Below are positions 4,768 to 22,849 of a DNA stretch of 39,433 nucleotides, one piece after another. A model generated the notes under the pieces. It made no database searches. It was not told the origin of the DNA and worked only from the letters and a program-made list of their open reading frames with translations. The position numbers and the translations under genes were made by a program. This DNA is from Planctomycetota bacterium (lineage in GTDB: Bacteria > Planctomycetota > Phycisphaerae > WQYP01): contig JAKBMM010000026.1 in NCBI GenBank assembly GCA_021831565.1, positions 1-39,433 on the forward strand, given 5' to 3'. The stretch's first letter is position 1, and the number at the start of each line of letters is the position of its first letter.

Positions 4768-5574
4768 TTACTTCTCCAAGCCCGATTGGTTCAGCGCCAG
4801 AATTTCCTCATCTTCGATCATTTTCAGCGGTCGCAGCGCCAATCCGCCGTCCACGAGCAGATCCGCTCCGGTGATATAAGAACTCAGGTGATTGGAAAGA
4901 AGGAAGGCGGCGGCAGGGCCGCACTCCAGGGGCGAGCCCGGACGTCGGAGCGGAATTTCACTTAGCTGCAGCGCCTGCCGCCGGGCGGACATGCCGGCGG
5001 TGAGGCGAGTGGAGAAATATCCCGGCGTGATCATGTTGACCCGAATTCCGAAGGGAGCCATTTCCACAGCCAGTGTTTCCATGTACATTTTAAGCCCCAT
5101 CTTGGAGATGCGATAGACCGCCTCCCCATAAGCCGGGCATATCCGCACCGTCGAGCCGATGATTAAAATACTCCCCGCCCGCCGCGGGAGCATGTGTCGG
5201 CTGATCTCCCGGCAGGCCCAGACGCATGCGCCCAGATTGATATCCATGACTTCGTGAAAAGCCGGCGCGGTCACTCGCGTTACCGGTTCGTGGCGGGCGA
5301 TGGCGGCGTTATTGACATACAGATCAAGCCCATCCCAGCGACGTATAGCCCGTTTAACCGTCTCCACCACCGCCGCCTCGGTGCGCAAATCAACCTGGAT
5401 TAATTCGACTTCGGCTCCCATCTCGCCCAGTTCCGCCAAGGCTTGCGGATAATCATCCCGGCTGGCGATGATTAATCGCACCCCCTCCCGCGCGAGTGTT
5501 TTAGCGATACCAAGACCGATGCCACTATTTCCACCAGTAATCAGGCAGCGTTGGCCATGCAGTTGTGTGTCCAT
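4768..5574 (-). CDS. Classical short-chain dehydrogenase/reductase (SDR)
   Basis: A 268-residue Rossmann-fold enzyme. The NAD(P)-binding motif TGGNSGIG is at residues 13-20, NNA at 88-90, and the catalytic Ser141, Tyr154 and Lys158 (YRISK) are all present. The C-terminal half has the usual PGYFSTR and a late DLLVDGG stretch. Relatives oxidise sugars at C1 or sugar acids, or reduce keto-sugars (gluconate 5-dehydrogenase and L-fucose dehydrogenase types). The start at 5574 is chosen because MDTQLHGQ begins just before the first beta strand; the open frame extends 13 residues further without homology support. The gene sits within the sugar-catabolic cluster. Confidence 0.88.
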   Translation of the reverse strand: MDTQLHGQRCLITGGNSGIGLGIAKTLAREGVRLIIASRDDYPQALAELGEMGAEVELIQVDLRTEAAVVETVKRAIRRWDGLDLYVNNAAIARHEPVTRVTAPAFHEVMDINLGACVWACREISRHMLPRRAGSILIIGSTVRICPAYGEAVYRISKMGLKMYMETLAVEMAPFGIRVNMITPGYFSTRLTAGMSARRQALQLSEIPLRRPGSPLECGPAAAFLLSNHLSSYITGADLLVDGGLALRPLKMIEDEEILALNQSGLEK

Positions 5575-5644
5575 AACGAAGTTCCCTTTTGCAAACCGCA
5601 TTCCTGCAGCCATTCATCCGACCATTCGTACCGAGAACCTATTC

Positions 5645-6466
5645 TCAATCCTGCAGACCCAGGAATTCGACCGCGGCGCGGAGAGCAGGAAGACTCCGCT
5701 TGGCCGCTTCTATGGGGGTGGGATGGCCGTACAGGTCGAGGGTGATTTTTCCATCGTAGCCGGTCTCGCGCAGTGCTTGTAAAACCGCCTTCGTGTCCAT
5801 CTTTCCGTCGCCGGGCGCAAAATGCAGCTCGGAACTTTTCTGATCGGAATCAGAAAAGTGAACATGTCGGATGCGCCGCGCGAGTTGTCGAACCACCTGG
5901 ACATAATCATGCGGGCGCCCCACCCCATAATGGCAAAAGTCATAGGTAACGCCGAAATACGCACTGTCCAACTGGTCATAGAGCCGCGAGAGCAACCGCA
6001 CGCTCATTCCCACAGTGAAAGGATGAGGTTCCACGAGAAAACGAACCTGCCGGGGTTCCGCATAGGCCAATGCGGCCCGAAATAGAGTGAGCAGCCGCGG
6101 CAGCAGTTGCCTGATCCAATACTCCTCGGTGGTACCCTCCGGAGCCCGCCCTTCCCAGACCAGCACGTCTTTAACTCCCAGCGAGAGCGCGTAATCAACA
6201 TCTTGGCACAGACCCTCCACCGTGGCCGCAAGCTGCGCCTCATCGCCAAACGGCTGGAAATAAGATTCCCCCACCACGTTGAGTCCACCCATTCGAATTC
6301 CCAGATCGCCCGCCTGTTTGACAAAACTCGCCCGCAACTCCGGCGTCCGGCACCGCCGCAAGTGGGGCTTGTTCATTTCCACGCCGACAAAACCAGTCTC
6401 CCTCAATATTCCCAGCAGGGATTCCAAAGAGTAGTCTTCAAAGGTGATGGAACTGGCCCACATCAT
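5645..6466 (-). CDS. Sugar phosphate isomerase/epimerase-like TIM barrel
   Basis: A 273-residue protein of the xylose-isomerase-like TIM-barrel superfamily (PF01261). Likely metal ligands are E146 (LVEPHP), D176 (TYDFCH) and H203 (HVHFSDS), followed by the family hallmark HFAPGDGKMD. The usual fourth acidic ligand is D244 (ITLDLYG) rather than the more common Glu. Members include hydroxypyruvate isomerase, 3-epimerases of keto-sugars and inosose dehydratase, so the exact reaction is open. GGAG lies 4 bases before ATG 6466 and 7 bases before a second ATG at 6463, so either may be used. Confidence 0.82.
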   Translation of the reverse strand: MMWASSITFEDYSLESLLGILRETGFVGVEMNKPHLRRCRTPELRASFVKQAGDLGIRMGGLNVVGESYFQPFGDEAQLAATVEGLCQDVDYALSLGVKDVLVWEGRAPEGTTEEYWIRQLLPRLLTLFRAALAYAEPRQVRFLVEPHPFTVGMSVRLLSRLYDQLDSAYFGVTYDFCHYGVGRPHDYVQVVRQLARRIRHVHFSDSDQKSSELHFAPGDGKMDTKAVLQALRETGYDGKITLDLYGHPTPIEAAKRSLPALRAAVEFLGLQD

Positions 6467-6524
6467 TAATTCTCCAATATTCCGGTTTTTTCCGAAGTAA
6501 CCGCCAGACCGGCGCGGCGGGTCT

Positions 6525-6542
6525 TCCCGCCGGAAGTCGCCG
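6525..6542. other. Intercistronic hairpin
   Basis: CGGCGGG (6525-6531), a TCTT loop and CCCGCCG (6536-6542) form a perfect 7-bp stem two bases after the BKACE stop codon, in the 78-base gap before the isomerase gene. No T-run follows on either strand. It looks more like an mRNA-stabilising or processing stem than a terminator. Confidence 0.45.
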
Positions 6543-6544
6543 TT

Positions 6545-7420
6545 CTACCGTGCCGGCAACCCCGTTATCGCCCGCGCTTCCTGTGGGGAAGCTATTTCCC
6601 GGCCCAATTCACGGGCGATTCGCACGATCTTTTCCACCAATTCGGCGTTGCTGCGGGCAAGAGTGCCACGCAGATCGAGATACGGGTTATCTTCCATGCC
6701 CACACGCACGTGACCTCCCAAGAGTATTGCCTGCGTGAGCATCCGCCAATGCGTCCGGGGGTCCATGACACTGACGCTGTAATTAAAGTGGGCGGGCCGA
6801 TGCTGGTCCATGTAAAGCAGCGCCGAAACCGTCGGGGGAGTCCAGCAACCGCCCGGCCAAGCCAAGAAAAAGGTCGTCCAAACAGGCGTATCGAGCAAGC
6901 CCTTTTCGATCAGGCGCTGCGCGTTCCAAACGGCCCCATAGTGAAAGGATTCGACCTCGGGCTTGACACCGTGCCGGCGTGCGTGCACGCAGTAGCCTTC
7001 CAACTCCTCGCGGGAGTGAATGCCATAGAGTTCCACGGGCGGATAGGCGGGATCGGGTTGGAAACACTCATCATGCGCGTTGAAACAAATGGACATCATA
7101 TCCGGCTGCTGTTTCATCAGCTCGATCCGCTGCGGATAACGGCCATTGGCGATTCCGTACTGAATCACCGGCCGGCGGACGGCGGTAATGGAGTTCTTGA
7201 GCCGTTCCCAGCCCGGCAGGTCGAGATCGGAGAGTTTCGTACCGTCAGCCTGGATTTTCTCATCGACGGTGTAGGGACCATGCAGATGGCAGATGGCGGC
7301 GCCCGCATCCACGGAGCGCACATATTCCTGGGCTATAGCCTCCCGGGATTTAGGGTTGAAAGGATTCCGGGGATACGACATGGTGGAATCACAGGTAACG
7401 GTGATAATTAATTTGTCCAT
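6545..7420 (-). CDS. BKACE family (DUF849) beta-keto acid cleavage enzyme
   Basis: A 291-residue protein with the BKACE TIM-barrel features. ITVTCDSTMS lies at the N-terminus, the metal ligands H45-L-H47 are in ICHLHGPY, a KPEVESF segment carries E155/E157, and HVRVGMEDN carries E243. Characterised members (3-keto-5-aminohexanoate cleavage enzyme and others) transfer acetyl-CoA onto a beta-keto acid and release acetoacetate plus a new CoA ester. Start 7420 is chosen because GGAG lies 8 bases upstream and MDKLIITVT is the canonical N-terminus; the long upstream extension overlaps the alcohol dehydrogenase gene and is not coding. A BKACE inside a sugar locus is unusual and suggests that a beta-keto acid intermediate is formed. 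Confidence 0.88.
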   Translation of the reverse strand: MDKLIITVTCDSTMSYPRNPFNPKSREAIAQEYVRSVDAGAAICHLHGPYTVDEKIQADGTKLSDLDLPGWERLKNSITAVRRPVIQYGIANGRYPQRIELMKQQPDMMSICFNAHDECFQPDPAYPPVELYGIHSREELEGYCVHARRHGVKPEVESFHYGAVWNAQRLIEKGLLDTPVWTTFFLAWPGGCWTPPTVSALLYMDQHRPAHFNYSVSVMDPRTHWRMLTQAILLGGHVRVGMEDNPYLDLRGTLARSNAELVEKIVRIARELGREIASPQEARAITGLPAR

Positions 7421-7491
7421 ATCAATGTCTCCAGAGTAAAAGGTCATCGTTGGGGCGCCCGGCGGTATATCAAAAAATCCGGACGCCTGGT

Positions 7492-8514
7492 TCAATCGTC
7501 GCGCACCACAACAACGACGCGCCCCAGGGGATCGGATCGCACCAGACCCAAGGCGGCATTTATGTCCTCCAGCGGAAAACGCGCGGCGATCGGCGGCCGA
7601 ACCGCGCCGCATTGGACCAACCGAATCGCCTCCACGAAGTCTTGCCGAGCACCGTTCCGCGAGCCGATGATTTCCAGTTCGCGCTGCGCGATTTCCGTAG
7701 ACGTAATGGCCGGGGGTTGTCCGCTTTCCCCGATGACGACTACGCGCCCGCCATTGCGGACCCAACGGCAGGCGGCGGCCAGCGACGGCGTCGATCCCAC
7801 GCAATCGAATACGGCCGCGACACCATCCGAATCGGCAAGATCGTGAATTGCGGCATCGACCTGTTCCACGGCAAACGGATACGTCCAGGTCGCGCCGAAA
7901 TGGCGCGCCAGTCCCAGCTTTGCCTGGACCCGATCAATCGCAACCACCCGGACACCGGCATTTACCAGAACCTGAATCAGGGATAATCCCACGCCGCCGG
8001 CGCCCAATACAATAGCGCTCTGGCCGGCGTACAATCCCGCCCGCCGCGCGGCATGCACGGCCGTTACCACCGCATCAGCGATCAAGCCGCCGATATCGAA
8101 GGGTACGTTGTCGGGAAGGCGAAACAAATTTCCGGCCGGCGCTTTAAAGTACTCCGCAAAGCCGCCGTGGCACATCACCCCTAAAATGCCGCCCAAATGA
8201 AGACATTGTTGGTGTCGCCCGACCCGGCAATAGTAACAGTCATGGCAATTGAAAAAGAGATACGGAACGACACGGGTACCCGGGGTAAGATTCCGCACCG
8301 CCCGGCCGACACGCACGACCACGCCAGCCGGCTCGTGACCTAAAATATGCGGCAGCTTCGGAACATAGGCCGCCCCCGCGAGGATGTGCAGGTCCGTGCC
8401 GCAGATTCCGCTGGTGCGGGTCTCCACGAGCACCTCATCATCGGCGATTACCGGCAGAGGCATATCGCAGACTCGCAAGGGCTGGTTGATGTCCAACATG
8501 ACAGCGGCTTTCAT
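7492..8514 (-). CDS. Zinc-dependent medium-chain alcohol dehydrogenase
   Basis: A 340-residue MDR enzyme. Catalytic zinc ligands are C38 (SGICGTD) and H60-E61 (LGHEPAG). The structural zinc is held by C90, C93, C96 and C104. The NAD-binding turn is VLGAGGVGLS. It resembles threonine, sorbitol or galactitol dehydrogenases and probably oxidises a secondary hydroxyl of a sugar or sugar acid to a ketone. Such a step could produce the beta-keto acid for the BKACE enzyme encoded 71 bases downstream. Its ATG overlaps the TGA of the upstream GH116 gene as ATGA, a sign of translational coupling. The product is cytoplasmic, with no signal peptide. Confidence 0.9.
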   Translation of the reverse strand: MKAAVMLDINQPLRVCDMPLPVIADDEVLVETRTSGICGTDLHILAGAAYVPKLPHILGHEPAGVVVRVGRAVRNLTPGTRVVPYLFFNCHDCYYCRVGRHQQCLHLGGILGVMCHGGFAEYFKAPAGNLFRLPDNVPFDIGGLIADAVVTAVHAARRAGLYAGQSAIVLGAGGVGLSLIQVLVNAGVRVVAIDRVQAKLGLARHFGATWTYPFAVEQVDAAIHDLADSDGVAAVFDCVGSTPSLAAACRWVRNGGRVVVIGESGQPPAITSTEIAQRELEIIGSRNGARQDFVEAIRLVQCGAVRPPIAARFPLEDINAALGLVRSDPLGRVVVVVRDD

Positions 8515-10736
8515 CGGACCTTCCCCTCCGGCGGCGATTCCCGCGGGAACGTGGACGTCTCACCGGCTTGTGGTTCTTGCCCCTTCGCCGCGGCAAGCAG
8601 GTTCCAGATCACCCCTTGCGAGCAGGCACGGTGGATGTCTTCTCCGGCGATGGCCAAAGGCAGCAGCCACAGGATCATCATCTGATAGAAGTCCGTGCCG
8701 TGAAGAATAGCGCCGGTGTCGGCATTGAGAATATTGGGCATGTCCCAGGCGGCCGCCTGCCCAATGACAATATCTTCCAGCAAGGCGTGGGCAGTGGTTA
8801 GCGCCGCCTTGGTCTTACCGGCGTAAGCCAAGGTGGCGGAGACGGCAACTGATTCTCCCGTGAAGATGCCGTCGGATTGCGGCGGAGCGGCGCGGTCCCA
8901 GCTTCCGTCCGGACGCAGCGCGTTGGCGATACCGTAACGGCTGGCGCGGCCGCACAAGCGCAACACGGAATCGAGGGTTGCAGCTATCCGCTCGCGTGGG
9001 AATATCGCGGCAAGGCCATGCAGATCGGCGCATAACTGGCCGGCAAGCTGGTTGGCCAGCACCGTATCGGATTGTTCGCCGGTGGCGCAGTCTTTAAAAA
9101 GAAGATAATGGCCGCCCGCCCATAGTTTCTCCTCAACCGATTGGTCGGCGACTTTTTGCCATAGCGCACAATCGGCGACGAACGCCCGATCTCCAATGCC
9201 GTGGGCCATACGCTGCGCCATGGCCAAGGCGGCCAGCCAAAGCCCGTTGACATGAATGGAAGTCCCCCGCCAAGTCCACTTGCCATAAAACTGATTGGGG
9301 GCCGGGTCCGGGTCCAAATCGGGCAGGGCGTCGCTATCGCGATCCAGCCCCTGGGTGAACTGGATGGCCCGCTTCACACTGGGATAAAATTCCAGCAGTG
9401 TGGCGCGGTCACGATCGCGCTGCCAGAGCCGATCCACCAGATGCACGAAGATGATGCCGTTGAGCGTGTGCAGCGTGCGATAGACGGGATTGGCTAAATC
9501 AGCGCCTTGGCCGATACCCAGGGGAATCTCCCCGGTGGGCAGTTGGAAGTGGACATAGGCGCGCAGCAAGGAAGCCGCCAATTCGGGGAAAAAGAAAACA
9601 ATTGGCAAGCCGCCATACCAGTCGCTGGGATTGCACACGTGCGGGGTGGTACGGGGGCTTTCTGTAAGCGCGAAAATTCCAGTTTGACCATACCAGTCTT
9701 CGGCTGGGATGCTCTGGCAAGCCCAAAAACTATCTTTGGCGATGGTATGGAGAATGTTGACCAGTTGATCGCGCAGCCAAACCGGAAGATTCTCCAAGGC
9801 ATACACCCGCGATTGCCATTGGAAGACGCGCTCCAACAGACGCGTGTGACGTCCGGCGACGAACTCGGCCACTTCCTGAACGGAACGGAAACGGCGGGCG
9901 TAGGCATGACGGTAATGGTGACTGGTACTGCCGGCCCAACGCGGGCAATACCACGCCAGGACAAATCGTACGAGGCGATGTTCGGACGCAGCCAGCTCCA
10001 AATCCGCGGCGAGCGTGACGCCCGGCCGGCTGGTTTCAAACGGGACCGGGGCGACAAAATGACGACCCGCCGTTTCCAGACCACCGGCATGGAGTTGGAC
10101 CGCATCGGGCGTGCCGAGGAGCAGCCCCGCTTCACCCCACGTCATGCCGCCGCCGCGCACCGCGCCATCATAAAGCTGAAATTCGAGCGCGTTTGGGCCT
10201 CGTTCTTCCGGTGTGGGACCGGGGAAGGCGAGCGTAAGACGGCAAGCTTGCGCGGCGGCGGTGCAGTTGCGCAGATGAACCTCGAAGATGACGGCCGGGG
10301 TGTTTGAGGATTCGGCGTCACCGAGGATGAACGGCGACCAGGCGCGCAGGCCCACGCCGACGGGACCGGCAAGATCATATTCAATATCCGCCACCGGATA
10401 GTGCCCCCAGTAACTCATCGCGCGGGGGCGATCCAGCCCGGGCGGCGGGCTGCTGCTTAAAGCCCAGGTATGATTCGCAACCGTCAGGGCCAAAAAAGAA
10501 AAATTCAGTTCACGGGGCGGAGCAAAGCTGTTGAACAAGGAAGAGCGCCCCAGCCGGCCGTCGGTATTTAAATCCACACAACCGGTTCCGAGGCCGCCCA
10601 GGGGAATTCCGCAGCGGGCGCCCGCCGGATCGAAAATAATGCCCGGGACCGGTCTGGAGAAACCGGCTGCGGTAAATTCCCGCCATTGTTTCCGCGGTGC
10701 GGCAACGTCAAACAGATATGTAGTTTTCTGATCCAT
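8511..10736 (-). CDS. Cytoplasmic GH116/DUF608-like glycoside hydrolase
   Basis: A 741-residue protein without a signal peptide, related to the two Tat-exported proteins encoded upstream. It has an N-terminal beta-sandwich with the GIPLGGLGTGCVDLNTDGRLG motif and a C-terminal (alpha/alpha)6 barrel ending TDFYQMMILWLLPLAIAG. GH116 enzymes (human GBA2, Thermoanaerobacterium TxGH116) cleave beta-glucosides or beta-xylosides. The nucleophile position appears to be E359 (FALTESPR). The position I align with the acid/base Asp is G485 (FYGKWTWRG), so mechanism or activity may differ. The start is set at 10736, where the homologous region begins; the longer frame overlaps the aldolase gene. It begins 10 bases after the aldolase stop and overlaps the alcohol dehydrogenase start by ATGA. 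Confidence 0.82.
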   Translation of the reverse strand: MDQKTTYLFDVAAPRKQWREFTAAGFSRPVPGIIFDPAGARCGIPLGGLGTGCVDLNTDGRLGRSSLFNSFAPPRELNFSFLALTVANHTWALSSSPPPGLDRPRAMSYWGHYPVADIEYDLAGPVGVGLRAWSPFILGDAESSNTPAVIFEVHLRNCTAAAQACRLTLAFPGPTPEERGPNALEFQLYDGAVRGGGMTWGEAGLLLGTPDAVQLHAGGLETAGRHFVAPVPFETSRPGVTLAADLELAASEHRLVRFVLAWYCPRWAGSTSHHYRHAYARRFRSVQEVAEFVAGRHTRLLERVFQWQSRVYALENLPVWLRDQLVNILHTIAKDSFWACQSIPAEDWYGQTGIFALTESPRTTPHVCNPSDWYGGLPIVFFFPELAASLLRAYVHFQLPTGEIPLGIGQGADLANPVYRTLHTLNGIIFVHLVDRLWQRDRDRATLLEFYPSVKRAIQFTQGLDRDSDALPDLDPDPAPNQFYGKWTWRGTSIHVNGLWLAALAMAQRMAHGIGDRAFVADCALWQKVADQSVEEKLWAGGHYLLFKDCATGEQSDTVLANQLAGQLCADLHGLAAIFPRERIAATLDSVLRLCGRASRYGIANALRPDGSWDRAAPPQSDGIFTGESVAVSATLAYAGKTKAALTTAHALLEDIVIGQAAAWDMPNILNADTGAILHGTDFYQMMILWLLPLAIAGEDIHRACSQGVIWNLLAAAKGQEPQAGETSTFPRESPPEGKVR

Positions 10737-10746
10737 GTTGATGTTT

Positions 10747-11598
10747 TCAGCTAGAACCGGCGCCGCCTTTGGATCCAATCGCCCCGGCGCGATGGCGTGG
10801 GGGAGTGACCTGTTCCGGGGCGCCCGCGTGGGTCCCTTTAAGCTCCCGCATGGCCGCGCGATAACCTTCCAGCAGGACGCTTGTATCATTGGCGTACATT
10901 AACAAGCGGGCGCCGCATTCACGGGCGCGGCGCAACATCGCAAGCGAGGAAGTCTGCAGCCCTCCGGCAATCCCAGCCCTGGAGCAGGCCTGCAACACGC
11001 GTGCGACCGCTTTCCAGAAGCGGGGGTGTTCAAACTGACCCACGATGCCCATGGAAAGCGTCAGGTCATAGGGACCGATGAACAGGGCGTCCACTCCCGG
11101 CACGCGGGCAATTTCCTCCACGCGGTTCAGACCGGCTTCGCACTCAATCTGGATGACGGTCATGGTTTGGCGATTGCACGACTCGAGTTCTTCCGTCGCC
11201 GGACGGGAACAAAAGTCGGTGACGGTGCTGCGCAGCCCGTAGCCACGGCAACCTTCGGGCGGGAATTTGACCGCCCGCACAATACCGGCGGTTATTTTCG
11301 GCGAATGTACATGCGGGACGATGACGCCCATGGCGCCGATATCAAGAGCCCGGGTAATCAGGTGCGCATGGCTGTCGGTTACGCGCACCAGCGGCGTAAG
11401 AGCCGCGCCCTTGGCCACACGGCAGAGGGATTGGATCACGGGATAATCGGCGGCAGAGTGTTCGGTATCGACAAAAAAGAAATCGAACCCCACCGTCTTA
11501 AGCAGCAAGGCCATCTCCGGATGGAAGCAGTCGTCCAGGGAGGTTCCATAGACGATTTCGCCGGCACTGAGTTTGTGTTTAGTGGCATTGATTTGCAT
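10747..11598 (-). CDS. HpcH/HpaI family class II aldolase
   Basis: A 283-residue TIM-barrel aldolase. DTEHS (44-48) carries the likely catalytic H47. The metal ligands appear to be E152 (IQIECEAG) and D178 (IGPYDLTLSMG). VPHVHSP and GCRGYG are further family signatures. HpcH, GarL and RhmA relatives cleave 2-keto-3-deoxy acids to pyruvate (or a related oxo-acid) plus an aldehyde, which would be a terminal C-C cleavage in a non-phosphorylative sugar-acid route. The start at 11598 has AGGGA 7 bases upstream and gives the normal N-terminus; the longer frame overlaps the preceding gene. The last 20 or so residues (PPRHRAGAIGSKGG) are a low-complexity tail. Confidence 0.87.
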   Translation of the reverse strand: MQINATKHKLSAGEIVYGTSLDDCFHPEMALLLKTVGFDFFFVDTEHSAADYPVIQSLCRVAKGAALTPLVRVTDSHAHLITRALDIGAMGVIVPHVHSPKITAGIVRAVKFPPEGCRGYGLRSTVTDFCSRPATEELESCNRQTMTVIQIECEAGLNRVEEIARVPGVDALFIGPYDLTLSMGIVGQFEHPRFWKAVARVLQACSRAGIAGGLQTSSLAMLRRARECGARLLMYANDTSVLLEGYRAAMRELKGTHAGAPEQVTPPRHRAGAIGSKGGAGSS

Positions 11599-11629
11599 AA
11601 GCAATTCCCTGTGTTGGGGCAAACCGGGC

Positions 11630-12835
11630 CTACGGGCGCCCGGGAGCCAACAACTCCGCACCGGTTGTTCCTTGAATTAGTTCGTTCGGCGAATCGCTGT
11701 GATTCGTAAGCGAAATCGGCTTGGCGGAAATGACGATGTTGCCTTTGGCTCCCGGTTCAAGAATCATCGCGCGGCCGGGCGGAAATCCAAAACAATCCAG
11801 AAAAAATATGTTGTAGCTGCCGGCCGTGATAACCCCACTTCCTGGCTGAGAGTCGGTGGCGGCCGTCAGGTGAAAAATATTGCGATTGGAATACCGGCTT
11901 AATTTAACTTCCGCTTTGGCGGCCGCATGAAGGTGCGCCACCTGTATCGTGTTGGCCAAGACGCTGTGACTCGGAGAGGCGCCGGCCAGCAGGATATTGT
12001 CCTGGTAGCTGATGATTGCTGTTGCGTACACACGATTAAACAGAATCGGTCCGTGGCGGGCATCAAAAAATAAACCGGCTAAGGGGGTGCTGACGGAGGG
12101 TCCGCCAAGAGAGGGGGGGAGAGCGGAGCCGGCGGTGGCGATGCTCGAAAAACGGAACGAGCTATCCGTAATGACGGTGATGCCGTCAATCGGGGTCGGA
12201 TGCATGGGCCGGAAACGTACGGCGCAGCCGTTCGCCGCGCCGGTAACCAACAGGCCAAAGCGATAATGACAATCCTCACAACTGTCGATGGTCAGGAGAG
12301 TCCCCCGCAACGGGTCGTAATTGATCACGTATTCGCCGCCATCAATACGAAAATCCTGCGCCGCGGGAATGACGATGGGCGCGTCAACGCGATAGACGTT
12401 GTTGTTGGTGCGCCCGATCGCGCTTCGGCCCTCGATGTAAATATCCGCCCCGGTAGCCAGAGCATAGGTGATGGCTTCCTGAATTCCCGCCGTTCGCGTG
12501 AAACCTCCCACGGCGCCAGCTTGGGCATTGAGGATTTTCCCTCTTGCGGTCACAATCACCCGGCCGGTGGGCGAGAGCACCATGGGTTGAGGTTTCCCCG
12601 TGGCGGTTTTCGCGAATTCCACGAGCACATAGGGGTGAAGCGCTCCGCCGGCAGTGCGCCTGGCCGGAGGGGGATTGCCTCCCCGAATAACCATCGCCCC
12701 GGCCGGCGCCATTACCAGAGCCGGAATCACGGCGACGCCGACAAACACCAGCAAATTCGAGAGCCTGAATCCACAGCGCCGATTATGGTTAGGCGATAGG
12801 AGGACCGACTCCAACCCTTTACGCAGCCATTGCAT
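11630..12835 (-). CDS. Exported protein of unknown function, possible right-handed beta-helix
   Basis: A 401-residue protein. The first 27 or so residues are positively charged and are followed by one hydrophobic stretch (LLVFVGVAVIPALVMAPAGA), read as a signal peptide or membrane anchor. The body contains pectate-lyase/beta-helix-like features: a GIQEAITYALATGADIYIEG stretch, as in proteins that open with an axial repeat, then many short beta-strand and Asn/Gly turn segments (RIDGGEYVIN, ITVITDSSF, NTIQVAHLHA, NIFFLDCFG). No catalytic residues are recognisable. GGGGAAA lies upstream of ATG 12835. It sits between an exported GH116 gene and the aldolase gene on the same strand. A role in glycan binding or cleavage at the cell surface is inferred from context only. 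Confidence 0.6.
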   Translation of the reverse strand: MQWLRKGLESVLLSPNHNRRCGFRLSNLLVFVGVAVIPALVMAPAGAMVIRGGNPPPARRTAGGALHPYVLVEFAKTATGKPQPMVLSPTGRVIVTARGKILNAQAGAVGGFTRTAGIQEAITYALATGADIYIEGRSAIGRTNNNVYRVDAPIVIPAAQDFRIDGGEYVINYDPLRGTLLTIDSCEDCHYRFGLLVTGAANGCAVRFRPMHPTPIDGITVITDSSFRFSSIATAGSALPPSLGGPSVSTPLAGLFFDARHGPILFNRVYATAIISYQDNILLAGASPSHSVLANTIQVAHLHAAAKAEVKLSRYSNRNIFHLTAATDSQPGSGVITAGSYNIFFLDCFGFPPGRAMILEPGAKGNIVISAKPISLTNHSDSPNELIQGTTGAELLAPGRP

Positions 12836-12865
12836 GTTGTTTCCCCTGTCGTAAGTGCGAATTAA

Positions 12866-15379
12866 TCAGCTCGAAAGAGGGTGAGTCCGCCGCCCCGCGT
12901 CGATAACCCGTTGCACCAGGCTTCCGGGAGCGGTCGCCCGCCGGATGTCATTTCCCGCCAGCGCGGCCGGCAGCGCCCAGAGCATCATGTTCTGATAGTA
13001 ATCGGATCCGTAGATTCGCTGGCCCGTCTGGCCATTTACTTCGTTCGGCTGCATCCAAGTGTAACCCCATTTGACAATTGCTTCCAAAGAGGTTTTGGCC
13101 AGTCGCAACCCGGTGGTTCGCTGACCGTTGTAGATGTAAGTCGCCGCCAGCATAAAAACTTCCGGCGGAAAGTATCCGTACGTGCCATAGACCACCGGTC
13201 CCGCCACCGGCTTGCCATCAGCCTGGGCGAAATTCGCGGCGCCATAGCGGTCGATGGCCATACACGTACGCTTAATGGTGTCGAGCACCACCGGCACCCG
13301 GCTCTTCTCAAAGACCCCCGGCAAACCGTGGTACTCGGTCATCCATTGCCCGTCGAGCTGGCAGGCGAACACCCGATCCGACTTCTTATTCGTTTCCGGT
13401 TCGTAATAAGCCAAATAGTATTTACCCGCCCACAGCTTCGATTCCAAAAGTTCGCTTCCCTCCCGGATCCACGCGGCGGATTGCCGGGCGAAGGCCTTGT
13501 CTTGGATATGTTCGGCCATCCGGTTCGCCATCCGCAGCATCGCCAGGTGAATTCCGCCCACGTGCGGCGTCATGCCAAACCAGGAATTTCCCTCGAACCA
13601 GTCCAAACCTTTACCGCGCGGCGTACGCGGCTGCGTTGGGTCCACATCGCCCGCCGGCACACTGATGATCCCCTGTTTGCCGGGTCGCAAATTTATGGTG
13701 TAGATCACCGCGCGTTTAATGGATGGATAAAATTCCCGCAACAGAGCGTCATTTCCACCTTCCCGCATCCAGTATCTATCAAACATATCAATATAACATG
13801 GACCATCTAGCGTACTCTGCGGTTCAACCAACAATGGTGTCGCCATATCCGCCCCGGATCCGAATATCCACGGCGGCGCTCCGTGGGGATGCTGATACGC
13901 CTTGTAGCCGCGCAAGGTGGAAAGCGCCAGTTCCGGGAAAAAGTAGACCACCGGCACATTGCCATAGAAACTGCAGGGGAGGCATTCAATCTGTGGCCAA
14001 CCCCGTGGACATTCGTTCATCCCAAACAGGCCGTCCTGCGGTTGGCACCAATCCCCCAACGGTTTGTGAGCTGCCGCCCAATATCCCGTCTTGGTGATCA
14101 AGTGCAGGATATTCACCAGAGATTCCCGCAGCCACACCGGCAATTCATCGGCTGTATATACCGCCCCCTGCCAGGCCAATACCCGGCGCAATAACGATTC
14201 GTGATTCTCCGCAACCATCTCCGCAACGGATAAGGCATTTTTGTGTTGTTGCGTATACATCCGAACAAAATAATTATCTCCCAGCCCCGGCCATACCGGC
14301 GAGTACCACGCCACCACTATTCGAATCACCCTTTCCGCCGCGGGAGCCAATTCGAAATCCACCGCTACCGAGGCGCCAAAAGTTTCCTCCGTTACTTTCG
14401 GTAATGTATGCGTAATACCGCTCCAGGAACTTGCCGTTTCATAATCGTATCCATCTATCCAAAGACCACCTCCATACCTGATATGCTGATTTTCAGGTTC
14501 AATAATACCCAACACATACCCCACGTTTGTTTCTGCGCTCAGAGCAACGCCATTAAGATTTTTTCCTTGGACTAAATTACGCCGCGCCTTCGTCAATCCT
14601 TTCGCCAATGGCCTATTGGCCAAGAATGGCCAATCACCGATGTAGCATGGTTCCACTGCACTCCCTGGCGCAATTTGCGCCTCCGCTTGCGTGGGCCCCG
14701 GAAAACTTAGCGCCACCGTACCTTTCTGCACCTGCCGCGAGCAGTTTCTCACGTGTACCTCAAACACCGCGACCGGTATATTTGACGCCTCGACATCACC
14801 CGGGATAAACGGCGTCCACGCCCGCAATCCCACACTCACGGGAGATCCCGGTGTTTCGTATTCGAGGTCGGCTATGGGATAATGCCCCCAGTAAGCGATG
14901 TCGCTGGGCTGACTTACCACCGGCAGTGTCCCAGATGCCGTGGATGGTGTGGTCAAAACCCAGCACGGACCACCCGCCACGCTCACTCCCAAAAACCCCA
15001 TTTTCAGAGGCCCTCGCGTCGGCACACCGGAGTTAAACAACGTACAATAGCCAAATGTTCCGTCCGTTTGCAGGTCGAGGCAGCCGGTGGCCACCCCGCC
15101 CAACGGCATTCCATTAGGAACCACGTCATCCCGGCGATAGATGATTCCGCACGCCGGACGCGAAAATCCTTCGGCGCGAAACCGCGCCCATTGCTTGGCC
15201 GGCACGTCGGTCGGAAACAATGTCGGCCCCGTTTTTGCGCGATAAATTTTTTCGTCCACCGGCGCGCTGCCCGCACCATGGACACTTCCCTGGCGGACAG
15301 CGGCCAAGCCGCCGCCTGCGCCCACCGCACCAACCGCCGCCGCTCCCGCCAACTCCTTGAGAAACTCCCGTCGATCCAT
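12866..15379 (-). CDS. Tat-exported GH116/DUF608-like glycoside hydrolase, paralogue A
   Basis: An 837-residue protein that opens with a Tat signal (MDRREFLKELAG and a long Ala/Gly-rich hydrophobic stretch), so it should be exported folded. The mature part has the GH116-type beta-sandwich (MPLGGVATGCLDLQTDGTFG) and an (alpha/alpha)6 barrel ending GSDYYQNMMLWALPAALAG. The putative nucleophile is E456 (GMNECPRG). The canonical acid/base Asp position aligns with E596 in LDWFEGNSW, with D593 three residues away. It is closely related to the protein encoded at 17688-20216, with near-identical first 100 and last 350 or so residues and a more divergent middle. The substrate is unknown; beta-glucosides or xylosides are typical for characterised members. 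Confidence 0.85.
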   Translation of the reverse strand: MDRREFLKELAGAAAVGAVGAGGGLAAVRQGSVHGAGSAPVDEKIYRAKTGPTLFPTDVPAKQWARFRAEGFSRPACGIIYRRDDVVPNGMPLGGVATGCLDLQTDGTFGYCTLFNSGVPTRGPLKMGFLGVSVAGGPCWVLTTPSTASGTLPVVSQPSDIAYWGHYPIADLEYETPGSPVSVGLRAWTPFIPGDVEASNIPVAVFEVHVRNCSRQVQKGTVALSFPGPTQAEAQIAPGSAVEPCYIGDWPFLANRPLAKGLTKARRNLVQGKNLNGVALSAETNVGYVLGIIEPENQHIRYGGGLWIDGYDYETASSWSGITHTLPKVTEETFGASVAVDFELAPAAERVIRIVVAWYSPVWPGLGDNYFVRMYTQQHKNALSVAEMVAENHESLLRRVLAWQGAVYTADELPVWLRESLVNILHLITKTGYWAAAHKPLGDWCQPQDGLFGMNECPRGWPQIECLPCSFYGNVPVVYFFPELALSTLRGYKAYQHPHGAPPWIFGSGADMATPLLVEPQSTLDGPCYIDMFDRYWMREGGNDALLREFYPSIKRAVIYTINLRPGKQGIISVPAGDVDPTQPRTPRGKGLDWFEGNSWFGMTPHVGGIHLAMLRMANRMAEHIQDKAFARQSAAWIREGSELLESKLWAGKYYLAYYEPETNKKSDRVFACQLDGQWMTEYHGLPGVFEKSRVPVVLDTIKRTCMAIDRYGAANFAQADGKPVAGPVVYGTYGYFPPEVFMLAATYIYNGQRTTGLRLAKTSLEAIVKWGYTWMQPNEVNGQTGQRIYGSDYYQNMMLWALPAALAGNDIRRATAPGSLVQRVIDAGRRTHPLSS

Positions 15380-15515
15380 TTTTTACATCCTCATCCATGA
15401 AATCCATGGCTCTTTTCCTGCACCGCCCAAAGAGCCACAACACTTTGAATTGCCGGGGATGCACCCAGTACCGAAAAGCTGATTTTCTGAAACCTCTCCA
15501 ATGAATTCAAATGGG

Positions 15516-17615
15516 CTAATGGCTTGACAACTTTACGATTGTGCCGGCGCCAGGTTTAAGCAGCAGACGCGGGCCAACAGGCTGATTCCATGGAACGTTA
15601 ACTCCGCCTTTTATCCGCCAGGGTATCGAGATGGCTCGCTTTACATCCGTGTTGACTAAAATAACATACCGATTTTCCGCCCTATCCGTAAACTCCTTTT
15701 CGACAATCTTTTTTACTTTTATAGGAAAAGAAACGGGAAAGCGGGCAGGCCGCCATTGTAAAAAGAGGGGCGCCAGCTTGTAAAACTCCACATTGAGACG
15801 GCCCACTGTGGTCCAACGTCTGCTTGATTCCAAATGGTGTCCATTAACCAATCCCCCGTGCGCCCCGTTCCCTTGATAGCCAAACCAGATCAATCCTTTC
15901 GCTCCATAGGCCAGCGCCAGCCATGCCTGCGCTCGGATCTCCGCGGGGGTGGGTATTCTCCATGTTCCTCCCCCAAATGCTTGTGGCGCCACCCATAATG
16001 GCCGGCCTTGGGCATCGCTGCGTGAGGCCTTGAGTGCGGCGATGTATCCGGAGAAATTACCTTTAAAGTTTGTTACGATCGGATAAATATCCACTAAATA
16101 AACCGGCAGATCAACGGTATCCGTAAATTTCTTAAATAAGGCGGTGTCCGGAGTTTGCGTAAATGTCGCAAAACATGGATGTTCCGGATCTTCGGATTCA
16201 ATGACCTGGTTTATCAATTTCATTCTTGCCGCCATCGCCGGCCCGGGTTCATCAACAATATAATAACCCATAAGCGCGGGATAGCACATGGAATCCTTGA
16301 TGGCATTAAAAACAAAACTATAGATATCTTCACCATTTAGAGAGATATCACCATCGATAAAACTGCCCGTTCCAACCGGCGATATTAACACACGTATCCC
16401 ATTCTTATACGCGGCATCCAGGAGGAAAGGCAGAGAATCCACCCAGTTTTTATATACATATACCAATACTATATTAATTCCATGTTGACGCAAATCTTTC
16501 ATGGTACGTTCATAATATTTGCGCCGATGCGATCCCAGCCAATCATACACCCCCCGGGCGAAGAAATGATTAAGCCCGGGCTGGGGCTTGGATTTGCTCC
16601 ATCGCCAACGCGTGTCGACCCAAAATGTCACCTCTCGCGTGATCCGCCTGGACCCGTAATGTATGCGCAATCGCAATTGATACCGGCCATCCGCCAGACC
16701 ATGGGCATGCCAGATCAGCGAATGATTGCCGCTTGCCTGTTCCTCAGGCGCGATCAACGTTTTGACGATGTGGGAATCCCTGGTCAGCACGGCAAGCGTG
16801 ACCTTGCCTGGCCCCGCCAACTCATAACGGATCATTGTCTTGTCCAGCACTCCACCGCCGTTGGGGTTCACCGTGTACGAAGACATCCCCAGGTGGTTTA
16901 TATAGATACCACGCGCGGTGAAATTCTTTATCCGCATGGTTGCCGACTGTGTCCACCAATCATTGTAACCAATCGCTTTAGGAATTTTTGCCAAGCCGGA
17001 GGCGCAGTTATCACGGGCTTCTAATAGGCCATTGACTTTCAGGCGCATTCCCCCCGGCCCGTATTGCAGGCAGATATGATACCATCGGCCGGGAGTCCAA
17101 TTTCTTGTCTTTGAATATAACCATTTCCAAGTTCCATTGTGAACGTGCGGTTGCCCAATACCGGAACAGGATATGCGCCCCCCGGCATCACATATTCCAT
17201 AAGCAAGTTCTCCTTGGGGACCACCTTTGCGGAAACCAACGATGATCGATCCACGGGGATAGAAACCGCGGCCCCAAGCCGGCCCATCAGCAAAAATATT
17301 CCAAAACGTCTTGTTCGAGTTGAGCAATGGGGCCAGCGGCTTCCAACTGTAATCGAACGAGATGGAGCCGGCATATTGGCTAAAATCACCAGGCGGATAT
17401 TCAATGGCATCACCGGGCGGATTTTCAAGGGTACTGGCCGATGAAAACACTGCGGCTTTACCGTCTTTGATTGCGGCATAAGTAACCCTGATTGCCTTGC
17501 CCTTAGTGTTACCATTCAATTTATCTTGCAATAATATTTTTCCTTGCGCACGCAGGGGGATCACCGCTGTCAGCATCAAAAATCCCGTTGCAATTGACAG
17601 TGCGGTGCTCCTCAT
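15516..17615 (-). CDS. Secreted multidomain glycosidase-like protein (ConA-like + TIM barrel)
   Basis: A 699-residue protein with a typical Sec signal peptide (hydrophobic core ALSIATGFLMLTAVIPLRAQG). Residues about 30-230 look like a concanavalin A-type jelly roll (GTWKWLY, WTPGRWYHICLQYGP, MRLKVNGLLE). Residues 255-330 resemble an FlgD-type Ig domain (GPGKVTLAVL, ADGRYQLRLRI). Residues 340-640 form a TIM-barrel-like domain with MGYYIVDEPGP and GAKGLIWFGYQG, as in clan GH-A glycosidases. The Glu in VDEPGP is a candidate acid/base. I do not recognise a specific CAZy family. The coding sequence looks more A+T-rich than its neighbours, hinting at separate acquisition. It lies between the two GH116 paralogues. 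No strong ribosome site precedes ATG 17615. Confidence 0.72.
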   Translation of the reverse strand: MRSTALSIATGFLMLTAVIPLRAQGKILLQDKLNGNTKGKAIRVTYAAIKDGKAAVFSSASTLENPPGDAIEYPPGDFSQYAGSISFDYSWKPLAPLLNSNKTFWNIFADGPAWGRGFYPRGSIIVGFRKGGPQGELAYGICDAGGRISCSGIGQPHVHNGTWKWLYSKTRNWTPGRWYHICLQYGPGGMRLKVNGLLEARDNCASGLAKIPKAIGYNDWWTQSATMRIKNFTARGIYINHLGMSSYTVNPNGGGVLDKTMIRYELAGPGKVTLAVLTRDSHIVKTLIAPEEQASGNHSLIWHAHGLADGRYQLRLRIHYGSRRITREVTFWVDTRWRWSKSKPQPGLNHFFARGVYDWLGSHRRKYYERTMKDLRQHGINIVLVYVYKNWVDSLPFLLDAAYKNGIRVLISPVGTGSFIDGDISLNGEDIYSFVFNAIKDSMCYPALMGYYIVDEPGPAMAARMKLINQVIESEDPEHPCFATFTQTPDTALFKKFTDTVDLPVYLVDIYPIVTNFKGNFSGYIAALKASRSDAQGRPLWVAPQAFGGGTWRIPTPAEIRAQAWLALAYGAKGLIWFGYQGNGAHGGLVNGHHLESSRRWTTVGRLNVEFYKLAPLFLQWRPARFPVSFPIKVKKIVEKEFTDRAENRYVILVNTDVKRAISIPWRIKGGVNVPWNQPVGPRLLLKPGAGTIVKLSSH

Positions 17616-17687
17616 GGAACCAAATGGGGACCATACCGATCGGTAACTTAGATACGCTTTTATGAAAAGCTCCTGATTTGCGCGGCG

Positions 17688-20216
17688 TTATACTCCGCTT
17701 GGCCGCCCCGCGTCGATAACCCGTTGCACCAGGCTTCCGGGGGCGGTCGCCCGCCGGATGTCATTTCCCGCCAGCGCGGCCGGCAGCGCCCAGAGCATCA
17801 TGTTCTGATAGTAATCGGCCCCGTAGACGCGTTGGCCCGTCTGGCCATTCACAACGTTCGGCTGGGTCCAGGTGTAGCCCCACTGCACGCAAATCCCATC
17901 CAAACAGCGCTTCGCCAGACGCATGGCCAGCTCCTGCTGGCCGTTGTACGCATAAGTTGCCGCCAGCATAAAAACTTCCGGCGGGAAGTATCCGTACGTC
18001 CCGTATCCCACTGGTCCCGCCACCGGCTTGCCATCAGCCTGGGCGAAGTTCGCAGCGCCATAGCGGTCAATGGCCATACACGTATGCTTAATGGTGTCGA
18101 GCACCACCGGCACCCGGCTCTTCGCAAAGACCCCCGGCAAACCGTGGTACTCGGTCATCCATTGCCCGTCGAGCTGGTAGGCGAACACCCAATCCGACTT
18201 TTTATTCGTTTCCGGTTCGTAATAAGCCAGGTAATACTTACCCGCCCACAGCTTCGATTCCAAAAGTTCGCTTCCCTCCCGGATCCACGCGGCGCATTGC
18301 CGGGAAAATACCTTGTCTTGGATATGTTCGGCCATCCGGTTCGCCATCCGCAGCATCGCCAGATGAATCCCGCCCACGTGCGGCGTCATGCCAAACCAGC
18401 CATTGCCTTCAAACCAGTCCAAGCCGCCGCCCGGGGAGGAGTTCGGTTGCGTGGGGTTGCGGTCGCCCGCGGGCACGCTGATAATTCCTTCCGGTCCCGG
18501 ACGCAATTGCAAGGTGTACAACACCGCTTTTTTTATTGAAGGATAAAACTCGCGCAGTACGGCGTCACTGCCGGTGCGCTGCCAATACCGATCCAGCATA
18601 TCCACATAACAAGGACCGTTGAGCGTGTTCTGGTAGCCCGGCGACGGCGTGTCCATATCGGCGCCGTCGGTTGCCTGGTAGCCCTGGGCCGCCCCCGCCG
18701 TACAGCCGCCGAATACCCACGGCGGGGCGCCATTTTTAAATTGATACGCCTTATAGCCGCGCAGAGTCGATAGCGCCAGTTCCGGAAAAAAGTAAACCAC
18801 CGGCACATTGCCATAGAAACTGCAGGGAATGCACTCGATTTGCGGGCACTCGCGGGGGCATTCGTTCATCCCAAACAAGCCGTCCTGCGGTTTGCACCAA
18901 TCCCCCAGTGGTTTTTGCGCCACAGCCCAGTAGCCGGTCTTCGTGATCAGATGCAGAATGTTTACCAGCGACTCCCGCAGCCACTCCGGAACTTCTTCCG
19001 CTGTATAGATGGTTTGTTGCCAGGCCAGCACCCGCCGCAGCAATTCCTCATGTCGCTGCGCCACGGCAAGCGCCACGGCGGCGGCATCCTGGAACTGACG
19101 GGTGTACATGCGGCGGTAGCAGTTGTTTCCCTGCCCCTTCCAAATCGGCGAATACCATACCAGCACGATCCGCACAATCTTCTCTTCGCCGGGTTGCAGG
19201 TTCACGTCCACCGCCAGGGAGGCCCCCATCTCGTATTCCGCAGTCAGGGGGAGGCTGTTGGCTATCGCCTGCATTTGGATAGCTGTTGCATATTCGTAAC
19301 CATCAATCCATAACGGGCCGCCAAATCGAACCGGCTCCGCCCCGATCACACCCAGGGCGTATCCCGTGCCAGCAGGCGATCGCAGATGTAAACCGGAAAA
19401 CCCCTGGCTGGAGATCGGCTTCCGCTCCGCCGCGACCAAACCATTCATCACCGGGCGATTCACCGTAGGCCACCCGACATACTGGGGCTCCCGCAAACTG
19501 GTGGGCGAAATTTGCGCCTCCGCTTGCGTGGGCCCCGGAAAACTAAATCCTATGGTCGCCTTCTGCTGCTTCCGGGAAAGGTTGCGTACGTGCACCTCGA
19601 AAATTGCGGCCGGTATATTCGACGCGTCGACATCACCCGGGATAAACGGCGTCCACGCCCGCAATCCCACGCTCACGGGAGCCCCTGGCATATCGTACTC
19701 AAGGTCGGCTATGGGATAATGCCCCCAGTAAGCGATGTCGCTAGGCTGACTTACCACCGGCAGCGCCGCGGCCGCCGTGGATGGTGTGGTCAGCACCCAG
19801 CACGGACCGCCCGCCACGCTCACTCCCAGATACCCCGTTTGCAGTGGTCCCCGCGTCGGCACACCGGAGTTAAACAGCGTACAATAGCCAAACGTTCCGT
19901 CCGTTTGCAGGTCGATGCAACCCGTGGCCACCCCGCCCAATGGCATTCCATTGGGAACCACGTCATCCCGGCGATAGATGATCCCGCACGCCGGCTGCGA
20001 AAAGCCCGCGGCGCGAAACCGCGCCCATTGCTTGCCGGACACATCAGTCGGAAACAATGTCGGCCCCGTTTTTGCGCGATAAATTTTTTGGTCCACCGGC
20101 GCGTTGCCCGCACCATGGACACTTCCCTGGCGGACAGCGGCCAAGCCGCCGCCTGCGCCCACCGCACCAACCGCCGCCGCTCCCGCCAATCCCTGGAGAA
20201 ACTTTCGTCGATCCAT
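17688..20216 (-). CDS. Tat-exported GH116/DUF608-like glycoside hydrolase, paralogue B
   Basis: An 842-residue paralogue of the 12866-15379 protein with the same Tat signal (MDRRKFLQGLAG), the MPLGGVATGCIDLQTDGTFG motif and the C-terminal YGADYYQNMMLWALPAALAG. The putative nucleophile is E452 (GMNECPRE). E603 in LDWFEGNGW occupies the canonical acid/base position, with D600 nearby. It carries an extra loop around CTAGAAQGYQATDGADMD that copy A lacks. AGGAG lies 7 bases before ATG 20216, which decides the start; the 42-residue upstream extension is not supported. It is separated from the GH-D gene by about 220 bases that contain no recognisable gene. Confidence 0.87.
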   Translation of the reverse strand: MDRRKFLQGLAGAAAVGAVGAGGGLAAVRQGSVHGAGNAPVDQKIYRAKTGPTLFPTDVSGKQWARFRAAGFSQPACGIIYRRDDVVPNGMPLGGVATGCIDLQTDGTFGYCTLFNSGVPTRGPLQTGYLGVSVAGGPCWVLTTPSTAAAALPVVSQPSDIAYWGHYPIADLEYDMPGAPVSVGLRAWTPFIPGDVDASNIPAAIFEVHVRNLSRKQQKATIGFSFPGPTQAEAQISPTSLREPQYVGWPTVNRPVMNGLVAAERKPISSQGFSGLHLRSPAGTGYALGVIGAEPVRFGGPLWIDGYEYATAIQMQAIANSLPLTAEYEMGASLAVDVNLQPGEEKIVRIVLVWYSPIWKGQGNNCYRRMYTRQFQDAAAVALAVAQRHEELLRRVLAWQQTIYTAEEVPEWLRESLVNILHLITKTGYWAVAQKPLGDWCKPQDGLFGMNECPRECPQIECIPCSFYGNVPVVYFFPELALSTLRGYKAYQFKNGAPPWVFGGCTAGAAQGYQATDGADMDTPSPGYQNTLNGPCYVDMLDRYWQRTGSDAVLREFYPSIKKAVLYTLQLRPGPEGIISVPAGDRNPTQPNSSPGGGLDWFEGNGWFGMTPHVGGIHLAMLRMANRMAEHIQDKVFSRQCAAWIREGSELLESKLWAGKYYLAYYEPETNKKSDWVFAYQLDGQWMTEYHGLPGVFAKSRVPVVLDTIKHTCMAIDRYGAANFAQADGKPVAGPVGYGTYGYFPPEVFMLAATYAYNGQQELAMRLAKRCLDGICVQWGYTWTQPNVVNGQTGQRVYGADYYQNMMLWALPAALAGNDIRRATAPGSLVQRVIDAGRPSGV

Positions 20217-20437: not shown

Positions 20438-22678
20438 TTACGCCGCAAAAAACAGCAGCTCGGATCGCACCGCGGCGGTGGCCGAGATCGTCAGGCCCTC
20501 GCGGGTGAGGGCCGCGCCGCGCAGCAACTGCCGCCGGCCGGTGTTGTCACTCGTGACGCGATACGTCAACCGCGGATCTAAACCCGCGGGCGCGAAATGG
20601 CAGGTAGAAGGACCGGCTGCGTTTAATTGGATAAATATAGCCCAGCCGTGCCGGCGATCAGGCGCTACGAACTCCAGGGCCAGCCAATCACCCGAGTCGA
20701 CCCCGCCGGTGGCGTTGATCGGCGCATGATGGTAGACGAGGCAGGTAGCCAGCAGGGGTCGGATGAAACGCTTATAAAACGTAGCGTAATGCAGAAGCTT
20801 GCGTCGCACCTCCGCCGACATCTTCTCCAGACTCTCCGGCAACATCCCGTTAAAGAGCATCGGAGTATTGCCCAGGGCGTACGTGGCGCGCAAGATCGTC
20901 TCGTAGTCGGGCTGATTCGAGCCGGACATACCATTGGGAAAAACCAGTGTTTCAGACGGCAAACAGGTGCTGACACCGTTAAGTATCTCGTAACCGGACG
21001 GACAACTTGCGTCATCGGTTACATAATTTTCGTTGAACGCTCCGGCGGTCGCGAGGTCCAGTCGCGTGCCGCCCGCCGATGCCTGCTGGAGAATCAGCTC
21101 CGGATGACGCCGCCGCGCGCGGTGGAAGGCGTCGTAAAAAACTTCATACTGACGCCAGTAGTCGCATTCCAGGAATCCATGTCGCAATGTGGACGGACCG
21201 TCGCCCAGGAGCGGTGCGTTGAAATCGTGCCGGTACAGGTCCAGCCGATAGAAATCAATTACCTGGTTCAGGGTCTGATTAAAGTACTCGGCTGCCGCCG
21301 GAATCGTGAGGTTGACAATCTTCTGGGGTTCGATGAACCAATCTGGATGTTGCTTGTAGACCGCGCTTTCGGCCCACCCGCCGATGGAGGCCCCGAATGC
21401 GCTGTAGCCGCGCCGCCCGCCTTCCAGCTCAAAGTAAAGCCCAAATAACATTCCCTTTTGGTGCGCGTATTTGCGGACGGGAGACAGCCCGTGGGGAAAA
21501 CGCCTGGCGTCCGGCTTCAACCAATCGCCGTAAGTACCGGTCCACAGCGCGTCCAAGATGAAGACTTCCAGACCGGCCGCGGCGGCGACATCAATACATT
21601 TCTTGACATTGGTCTCATCGAAGGCCGCGCCCTTGCACACGGAAAGAGGCTGATCACCAGGCAACAGATATTGGCTGCGGTAGGCTCTTTGCGGGTTAAG
21701 CGAAGGGACGACGGAGCGGCGCACGTGCGCCTGCATCGCCTGCACCGCCGCGTCGAAAGTTCCCTGCAGGTAGGCCAGATGCGTCGCCGGCGTGGTTACG
21801 GTTTCGCCGGCCGCCAGCACGCGCAGCGCATGATACGCCGCCGGCCCCATCTGAAAGGTCAACCCCCCGGCCCCCCGGTCGAATGCAATCCGAAAATTCA
21901 CCGGCCAGCCCATCTGGGCGAAGATGTATTCACCCCGCCGTGTGTGCTGCAAAAGAAAATAGGGCTTTTGATAAGTCAAGCCATGCGTCTGCTCCAAAAC
22001 GGTCTTGCCGGGCTGCAGCGGCGACCATTGAAGCCAGCCCGCCCATTGCGGCAGCCAACGTGTGGGGTGGCCGAGTTTCACCGCCTCACCCACATCCCCC
22101 TCCCACAGCCGCCCTGACCAGGGGCATAGCTCGGTAAGCGCATTGGCATGATCGGCCAGATTGGTGATCTCCAGCCAACGCGTCAGAACCGGCGTTCCAT
22201 CTAGCAGGGTAAGCAACCTGACCCGGAGCGCCTGCGCGGGATTTTCCAGTTCCACCGCAAATACTGTCGCCCCAGCCTTCGCTCCCGGAACCTCCCGCCC
22301 GGAGACCCATTGCCAGCCCGAAACAACCTTAGTCCCCGGCTGCTGCGGCGGCGTGGGCTTTGTCTTGATCCCAATGGCAAACGCATCGGCAATCCGCCAA
22401 GCCACCCCGGCCGGCGCCGCGCCCGTGGCGCTCCAAAACTTCGTCACCCAGCGACCGCCGACCAACCCCTCGACATACACAGTCCGCCCCGAAGCATAAT
22501 GCACTTCGGGACCTTGCGCCGTGTGGCGGACGGAAACGTCCATGTGCGGTATCGTACGCGCGGCATAATCCGTAAACGGCCCACATAGTTCCGTAACGGA
22601 TGGAGCCTTTCGCAAGCCCAATGCCGCCACGCCGCCAACGGCCAAATTCTGGAGCGCTTCTCGGCGATTGAGTTGCAT
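20438..22678 (-). CDS. Exported clan GH-D (GH36/GH27-like) alpha-galactosidase-like protein
   Basis: A 746-residue protein with an N-terminal Tat-like signal (LNRREALQNLAVGGVAALG). It has an N-terminal beta-supersandwich (residues about 40-330), a TIM barrel and a C-terminal beta domain, the GH36 layout. The likely nucleophile is D485 in LYRHDFNAP. The likely acid/base is D541 in SAGGTRLDLATAG, followed by VTDDA, matching the family pattern of a Gly-Gly-x-Arg-x-Asp motif and a later acidic pair. GH-D enzymes remove terminal alpha-galactose, alpha-N-acetylgalactosamine or related residues; the exact sugar is unclear. AGGGGA upstream of ATG 22678 supports the start. It is the first structural gene after the regulator, with a 305-base control region between them. 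Confidence 0.83.
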   Translation of the reverse strand: MQLNRREALQNLAVGGVAALGLRKAPSVTELCGPFTDYAARTIPHMDVSVRHTAQGPEVHYASGRTVYVEGLVGGRWVTKFWSATGAAPAGVAWRIADAFAIGIKTKPTPPQQPGTKVVSGWQWVSGREVPGAKAGATVFAVELENPAQALRVRLLTLLDGTPVLTRWLEITNLADHANALTELCPWSGRLWEGDVGEAVKLGHPTRWLPQWAGWLQWSPLQPGKTVLEQTHGLTYQKPYFLLQHTRRGEYIFAQMGWPVNFRIAFDRGAGGLTFQMGPAAYHALRVLAAGETVTTPATHLAYLQGTFDAAVQAMQAHVRRSVVPSLNPQRAYRSQYLLPGDQPLSVCKGAAFDETNVKKCIDVAAAAGLEVFILDALWTGTYGDWLKPDARRFPHGLSPVRKYAHQKGMLFGLYFELEGGRRGYSAFGASIGGWAESAVYKQHPDWFIEPQKIVNLTIPAAAEYFNQTLNQVIDFYRLDLYRHDFNAPLLGDGPSTLRHGFLECDYWRQYEVFYDAFHRARRRHPELILQQASAGGTRLDLATAGAFNENYVTDDASCPSGYEILNGVSTCLPSETLVFPNGMSGSNQPDYETILRATYALGNTPMLFNGMLPESLEKMSAEVRRKLLHYATFYKRFIRPLLATCLVYHHAPINATGGVDSGDWLALEFVAPDRRHGWAIFIQLNAAGPSTCHFAPAGLDPRLTYRVTSDNTGRRQLLRGAALTREGLTISATAAVRSELLFFAA

Positions 22679-22849
22679 GTTTGTTCCCCTGGTCTGAGCA
22701 GGAAATTTTCCCTGTGCGGCGGCGCTTGGCAATTTCTTTGGCCAAGGCGGACTATCTAAACCTGCCTGCCGGGCGTATAATCCCGGCGCGATGGGAAACG
22801 CCGGCTAAAAAATCGCCACGTTCCGCAAGTCGCAACCTTGCATGCTGAA

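Follow-up and report, generated by a model that had tools for sequence, protein, structure and literature searches.

A 39,433-nucleotide stretch of planctomycete DNA, referred to here as the window, appears to encode three glycosidases of the GH116 fold (a reading to which we give a probability of about 0.6) whose sugar-binding residues are unlike those of the characterised GH116 enzymes, with a glutamate as the putative acid/base in two of them, P_B and P_C, and a glycine in its place in the third, P_A, which has nevertheless been retained. P_A is a protein of 741 amino acids without a signal peptide (positions 8511–10736, minus strand), in which E359 is the predicted nucleophile and G485 occupies the acid/base column. 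P_B (837 amino acids; 12866–15379, minus strand) and P_C (842 amino acids; 17688–20216, minus strand) both carry a twin-arginine signal and have E456 and E452, respectively, as the predicted nucleophile, E596 and E603 at the acid/base column and D593 and D600 three residues earlier. The chemistry and the substrates discussed below are what we infer from the residues, phylogeny, conservation, predicted fold and selection that were observed.

The GH116 family is the one to which human GBA2 belongs. All three proteins score above the cut-offs of the Pfam entries PF12215 and PF04685, both of which are GH116 domains, and the 2.8 Mb planctomycete MAG contains exactly three PF04685 genes, all of them within the window; NCBIfam has no name for any of the three. 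AF2 models of P_A and P_C have pLDDT values of 92 and 91, and the top PDB fold matches of both models are all GH116 structures, with an N-terminal beta-sandwich and an (alpha/alpha)6 barrel. The best match for P_A is TxGH116, with a TM score of 0.79, whilst P_C matches TeGH116 and TxGH116 at 0.69–0.73 by query length; the confidence of the P_A model drops in the acid/base loop, which has low-scoring blocks at 68 and 71, and the PDB entries 12ri and 12rj, labelled GH116, gave a weak match only, short of a residue comparison. TxGH116, a beta-glucosidase of GH116 subfamily 1 (PDB 5bvu), has in common with the window proteins the two-domain fold, the glutamate nucleophile column and the position of the acid/base loop, but differs in its aspartate acid/base and in four glucose contacts that are replaced in the window proteins, with an identity of about 18–20%. 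ExoMA2, an exo-beta-D-arabinofuranosidase of subfamily 4 (PDB 8ic6), also has the fold and the nucleophile glutamate in common with them but keeps Asp557 (PMC10509167), and its sequence groups with proteins of the HNTYD/HNTLD type rather than with the window clade. It provides an example of a GH116-fold enzyme with a changed sugar specificity.

The translations agree, down to the numbering, with the first-pass annotation in the residues at the acid/base column, in the nucleophile glutamate kept by all three proteins and in the aspartate three positions ahead of the glutamate in P_B and P_C. Alignment of the translations to TxGH116 and ExoMA2 also bears out its central observation that the canonical acid/base aspartate (D593 in TxGH116, D557 in ExoMA2) is absent from all three proteins. 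The register has two anchors: E441 and D593 of TxGH116 align with E359 and G485 of P_A, and E431 and D557 of ExoMA2 lead to the same columns via a planctomycete subfamily-4-like protein. In crystal structures this ExoMA2 pair coincides with the catalytic pair of TxGH116 (PMC10509167). G485 lies within PAPNQFYGKWTW, where codons 482–487 (9276–9293, minus strand) read CAG TTT TAT GGC AAG TGG, or QFYGKW, so that the glycine codon GGC (9282–9284, minus strand) falls at the site of Asp593 in TxGH116. At this column relatives carry ANQFYDMWPWYGTS and ANQFYDIWPWQGTS, against PNQFYGKWTWRGTS in P_A, and it is because these aspartate-bearing relatives have the same flanks (ANQFYDMW and ANQFYDIW; NQFYD against NQFYG) that the glycine column is unambiguous.

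For P_B and P_C one profile alignment placed gaps in the catalytic loop, and the register of the glutamate pair is therefore taken from the alignment of many sequences and from conservation. In the larger alignment the glutamate falls in the D593 column, directly after the hydrophobic residue that precedes the aspartate elsewhere. That the substitutions are an artefact of alignment, with a different aspartate truly filling the acid/base site, is highly improbable: the displaced loop of the Glu pair in that one profile alignment and the presence of Asp477 on the same flexible loop of P_A would fit such a reading, but the shared flanks fix the glycine column, and the glutamate is nearly invariant and comes after a conserved hydrophobic position. 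Chance and sequencing error are ruled out for the glutamate, which is found in dozens of proteins across many phyla.

The acid/base column was followed through a set of about 100 usable homologues, obtained from a scan of GTDB contigs and sampled phyla, and a tree was built from 98 of these proteins with the catalytic loop (residues 583–599) removed. The identity of the acid/base residue is accounted for by five changes on this tree, namely a single origin for the main Glu clade, another for the Gly clade and isolated cases of Cys, Gln and Glu among paralogues. The main Glu clade comprises 48 proteins with glutamate and one with glutamine from many phyla (support 99), and the Gly clade three proteins, two of them close (support 99). 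The two clades are separate and both are nested among relatives that keep the aspartate, which is thus the surrounding state. The earlier suggestion of a single altered subfamily therefore stands only in so far as the change does mark phylogenetic groups; the tree rules out one subfamily for all three proteins and places the Asp-to-Glu change and the Asp-to-Gly change in different clades, as distinct events.

At the thresholds used, matches were found in 11 of 392 sampled Planctomycetota, 1 of 297 Acidobacteriota, 12 of 201 Armatimonadota, 2 of 289 Verrucomicrobiota and 2 of 201 Chloroflexota, some of them of the Asp type. With few candidates scored per genome, this sampling of five phyla yielded no Gly-type members past the three lineages. 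Two MAGs hold many paralogues of the GH116-like clade: a groundwater Armatimonadota MAG (G450, L128–L143) has 43 matched stretches, or roughly 20 paralogous genes, and a planctomycete MAG (G444, L144–L149) has 21, or roughly 10 genes. At the acid/base column these paralogues have Asp, Glu, Cys (ANHYLC) or Gln (DHWFQ), and one of them (L140:307-3423) has an aspartate at the nucleophile column (FFSVTDS) in place of the glutamate.

Reduction of the Glu-type set at 70% identity left 38 proteins with a mean pairwise identity of 45%. Within these, the nucleophile glutamate and a tryptophan two residues before the acid/base column are present in all 38 and the glutamate at the acid/base column in 37, whilst 34 have an acidic residue at the –3 position. 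The prevalence of this –3 acid means that it may share or take the acid/base role, and the first-pass annotation had raised a shifted acid/base, in which D593 of P_B and D600 of P_C would be the true proton donors and the glutamate structural. The flexibility of the loop in TxGH116 (PMC10167657) would also accommodate such a shift. Nonetheless, this arrangement is quite improbable for the Glu pair, as several members have His, Gln, Leu or Thr at –3 and still keep the glutamate, and the position is Gln, Asn, Ser, His or Cys in most Asp-type relatives. Two further Armatimonadota proteins outside the 38 read GDTWHE, with no acid at –3. Moreover, the D593E variant of TxGH116 remains active, with hydrolysis 36-fold slower, no pH shift and an unchanged mechanism (PMC10167657).

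It is most likely, from the position and conservation of the glutamate and by analogy with D593E, that P_B and P_C are ordinary retaining glycosidases with a glutamate acid/base. Such exported enzymes would operate by double displacement with the glutamate in place of the aspartate as general acid/base, the nucleophile glutamate attacking the anomeric carbon and Glu596 or Glu603 protonating the leaving group and then activating water. P_B and P_C look like duplicates of one another, being 78% identical with a dN/dS of 0.23, and they flank a 699-residue exported protein with a lectin-like domain.

The sugar pocket has also changed. In TxGH116 the residues D452, T591, E777 and R792 hold the 3-, 4- and 6-hydroxyls of the sugar (PMC10167657), and these glucose contacts of subfamily 1 are absent from the window proteins. 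Throughout the whole clade D452 is replaced by Pro, T591 by Trp or Phe, E777 by Asn and R792 by Gln, the last two columns having been read via a close relative of TxGH116. With these contacts gone, the substrate sugar is unlikely to be glucose held in the TxGH116 manner. The laboratory mutants D593E and D593G of TxGH116 have the residues that are natural to P_B/P_C and P_A, respectively (PMC10167657), but the mutants sit within an otherwise glucose-specific site, whereas in the window proteins the surrounding site is altered too.

P_A presents a different problem. Glycine at the acid/base column recurs in its counterpart on contig L004, a contig 86–97% identical to the window, where the protein is 87% identical to P_A, and in a distant planctomycete (L005/L081) at 51%. 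Between P_A and the L004 protein, dN/dS is 0.23 for the whole sequence and 0.16 for the catalytic domain, in comparison with 0.15 for P_C and 0.09–0.15 for the operon neighbours. This recurrence together with the dN/dS values rules out chance, sequencing error or a pseudogene as the source of the glycine, and the purifying selection and the operon position identify P_A as a kept, altered protein and not a relic.

A kept protein need not be an enzyme, and P_A could be a pseudoenzyme that serves the operon by binding a glycan or by regulation, with no catalysis. The glycine, the loss of several sugar-contact residues and the near inactivity of the equivalent TxGH116 mutant, D593G, which suffers a 3300-fold loss on 4NP-glucoside (PMC10167657), are all in keeping with this. 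However, every Gly-type protein has the nucleophile glutamate, and between species the catalytic domain is better conserved (94%) than the N-domain (81%). The sugar-contact losses, furthermore, are common to the Glu-type clade, which indicates a different substrate rather than decay, and the pseudoenzyme reading is thus rather unlikely. Selection on the catalytic domain makes it seem more likely that the reaction has changed, or that another residue substitutes, than that the protein has decayed, and the altered or non-hydrolytic chemistry that had been proposed for all three proteins may apply to P_A, but not to the Glu pair.

As an altered enzyme, P_A would be a cytoplasmic relative that lost its aspartate to glycine and was retained by selection, with a glycosyl-enzyme most likely still formed through E359. 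The role of the missing carboxylate could then be met by another residue, by a substrate with a good leaving group or by an anionic acceptor. Candidates for the residue are His366, in the Tyr447 column, and Asp477, in the catalytic loop, which in the Gly-type proteins are ionisable, near the site and mostly missing from relatives. With regard to the acceptor, acid/base mutants of TxGH116 transglycosylate, and azide or formate rescues them (PMC10167657). If P_A were a natural transglycosidase or phosphorylase, handing the sugar to an anion, for instance phosphate, with no acid/base, this would fit both the behaviour of the mutants and a cytoplasmic P_A, without a signal peptide, beside exported hydrolases that have one, and the clade-specific histidine aligns with the +1-subsite Tyr447. 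The analogy is one drawn from mutants, though, and the first step would have no route for protonation and the acceptor no recognised phosphate site, which leaves this proposal distinctly unlikely. The wider idea that the Gly type is a natural retaining-fold enzyme without a carboxylate acid/base, whether with phosphate or some other anion as the sugar acceptor or by means of a relocated residue such as His366, is somewhat less doubtful but still unlikely.

Downstream of P_A lie closely spaced catabolic genes (679–8514, minus strand) for a Zn-dehydrogenase, BKACE, a xylose-isomerase-like protein, an SDR, Ldh2, a RhaT-like transporter, a cyclase-family protein and an FAA hydrolase, with the P_A stop overlapping the Zn-dehydrogenase start by 4 bp. 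An HpcH/HpaI aldolase-family gene (10747–11661, minus strand) is immediately upstream of P_A with a gap of 10 bp, and further upstream in the cluster are a GH36-like protein with a twin-arginine motif (20438–22732, minus strand) and, at its head, a regulator with sugar-binding (XylR-type) and AraC-family domains (22984–24222, minus strand). Counterparts of the window's dehydrogenase, BKACE, cyclase-family, SDR and Ldh2 genes adjoin Glu-type genes in two Bacillota MAGs, in one of which (L048) an ABC sugar importer is also adjacent, and a Pirellulales MAG has part of the catabolic set beside its Glu-type gene, again with an importer. These neighbours and importers support a role for the Glu-type/Gly-type cluster in the uptake and degradation of a glycoside.

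BKACE cleaves 3-keto-2-deoxy sugar acids. Its presence hints, by analogy, at sugar-acid chemistry like that of oxidative deoxyribonate catabolism, of which BKACE forms part (PMC6365646). The set of Zn-dehydrogenase, BKACE, cyclase-family protein, HpaI aldolase, Ldh2, SDR and isomerase-like protein (window 679–8514) occurs wholly or partly beside Glu-type genes at L048, L014, L015 and L045, and this recurrence across several phyla may reflect an undescribed sugar-acid pathway; a literature search found no paper on an inositol-type pathway for the neighbour genes. A 401-residue protein without a Pfam match (window 11630–12835) also has relatives, at 27–35% identity, near Glu-type genes in several phyla (L008, L009, L012 and L032).

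With the glucose contacts gone, annotation of this clade as beta-glucosidase or glucosylceramidase is unsafe. A literature search found no paper on a glutamate acid/base in GH116, and of the two types the Glu type is of modest interest and the Gly type the interesting one. The latter, if the wider idea above is true, would perform in nature the reactions of laboratory acid/base mutants. Protonation by the GH116 acid/base comes from a perpendicular direction, which is unusual (PMC10167657), and an aspartate swapped once for glutamate and kept so across many phyla, together with a small clade that has no carboxylate at all, offers natural experiments on the requirements of that position.
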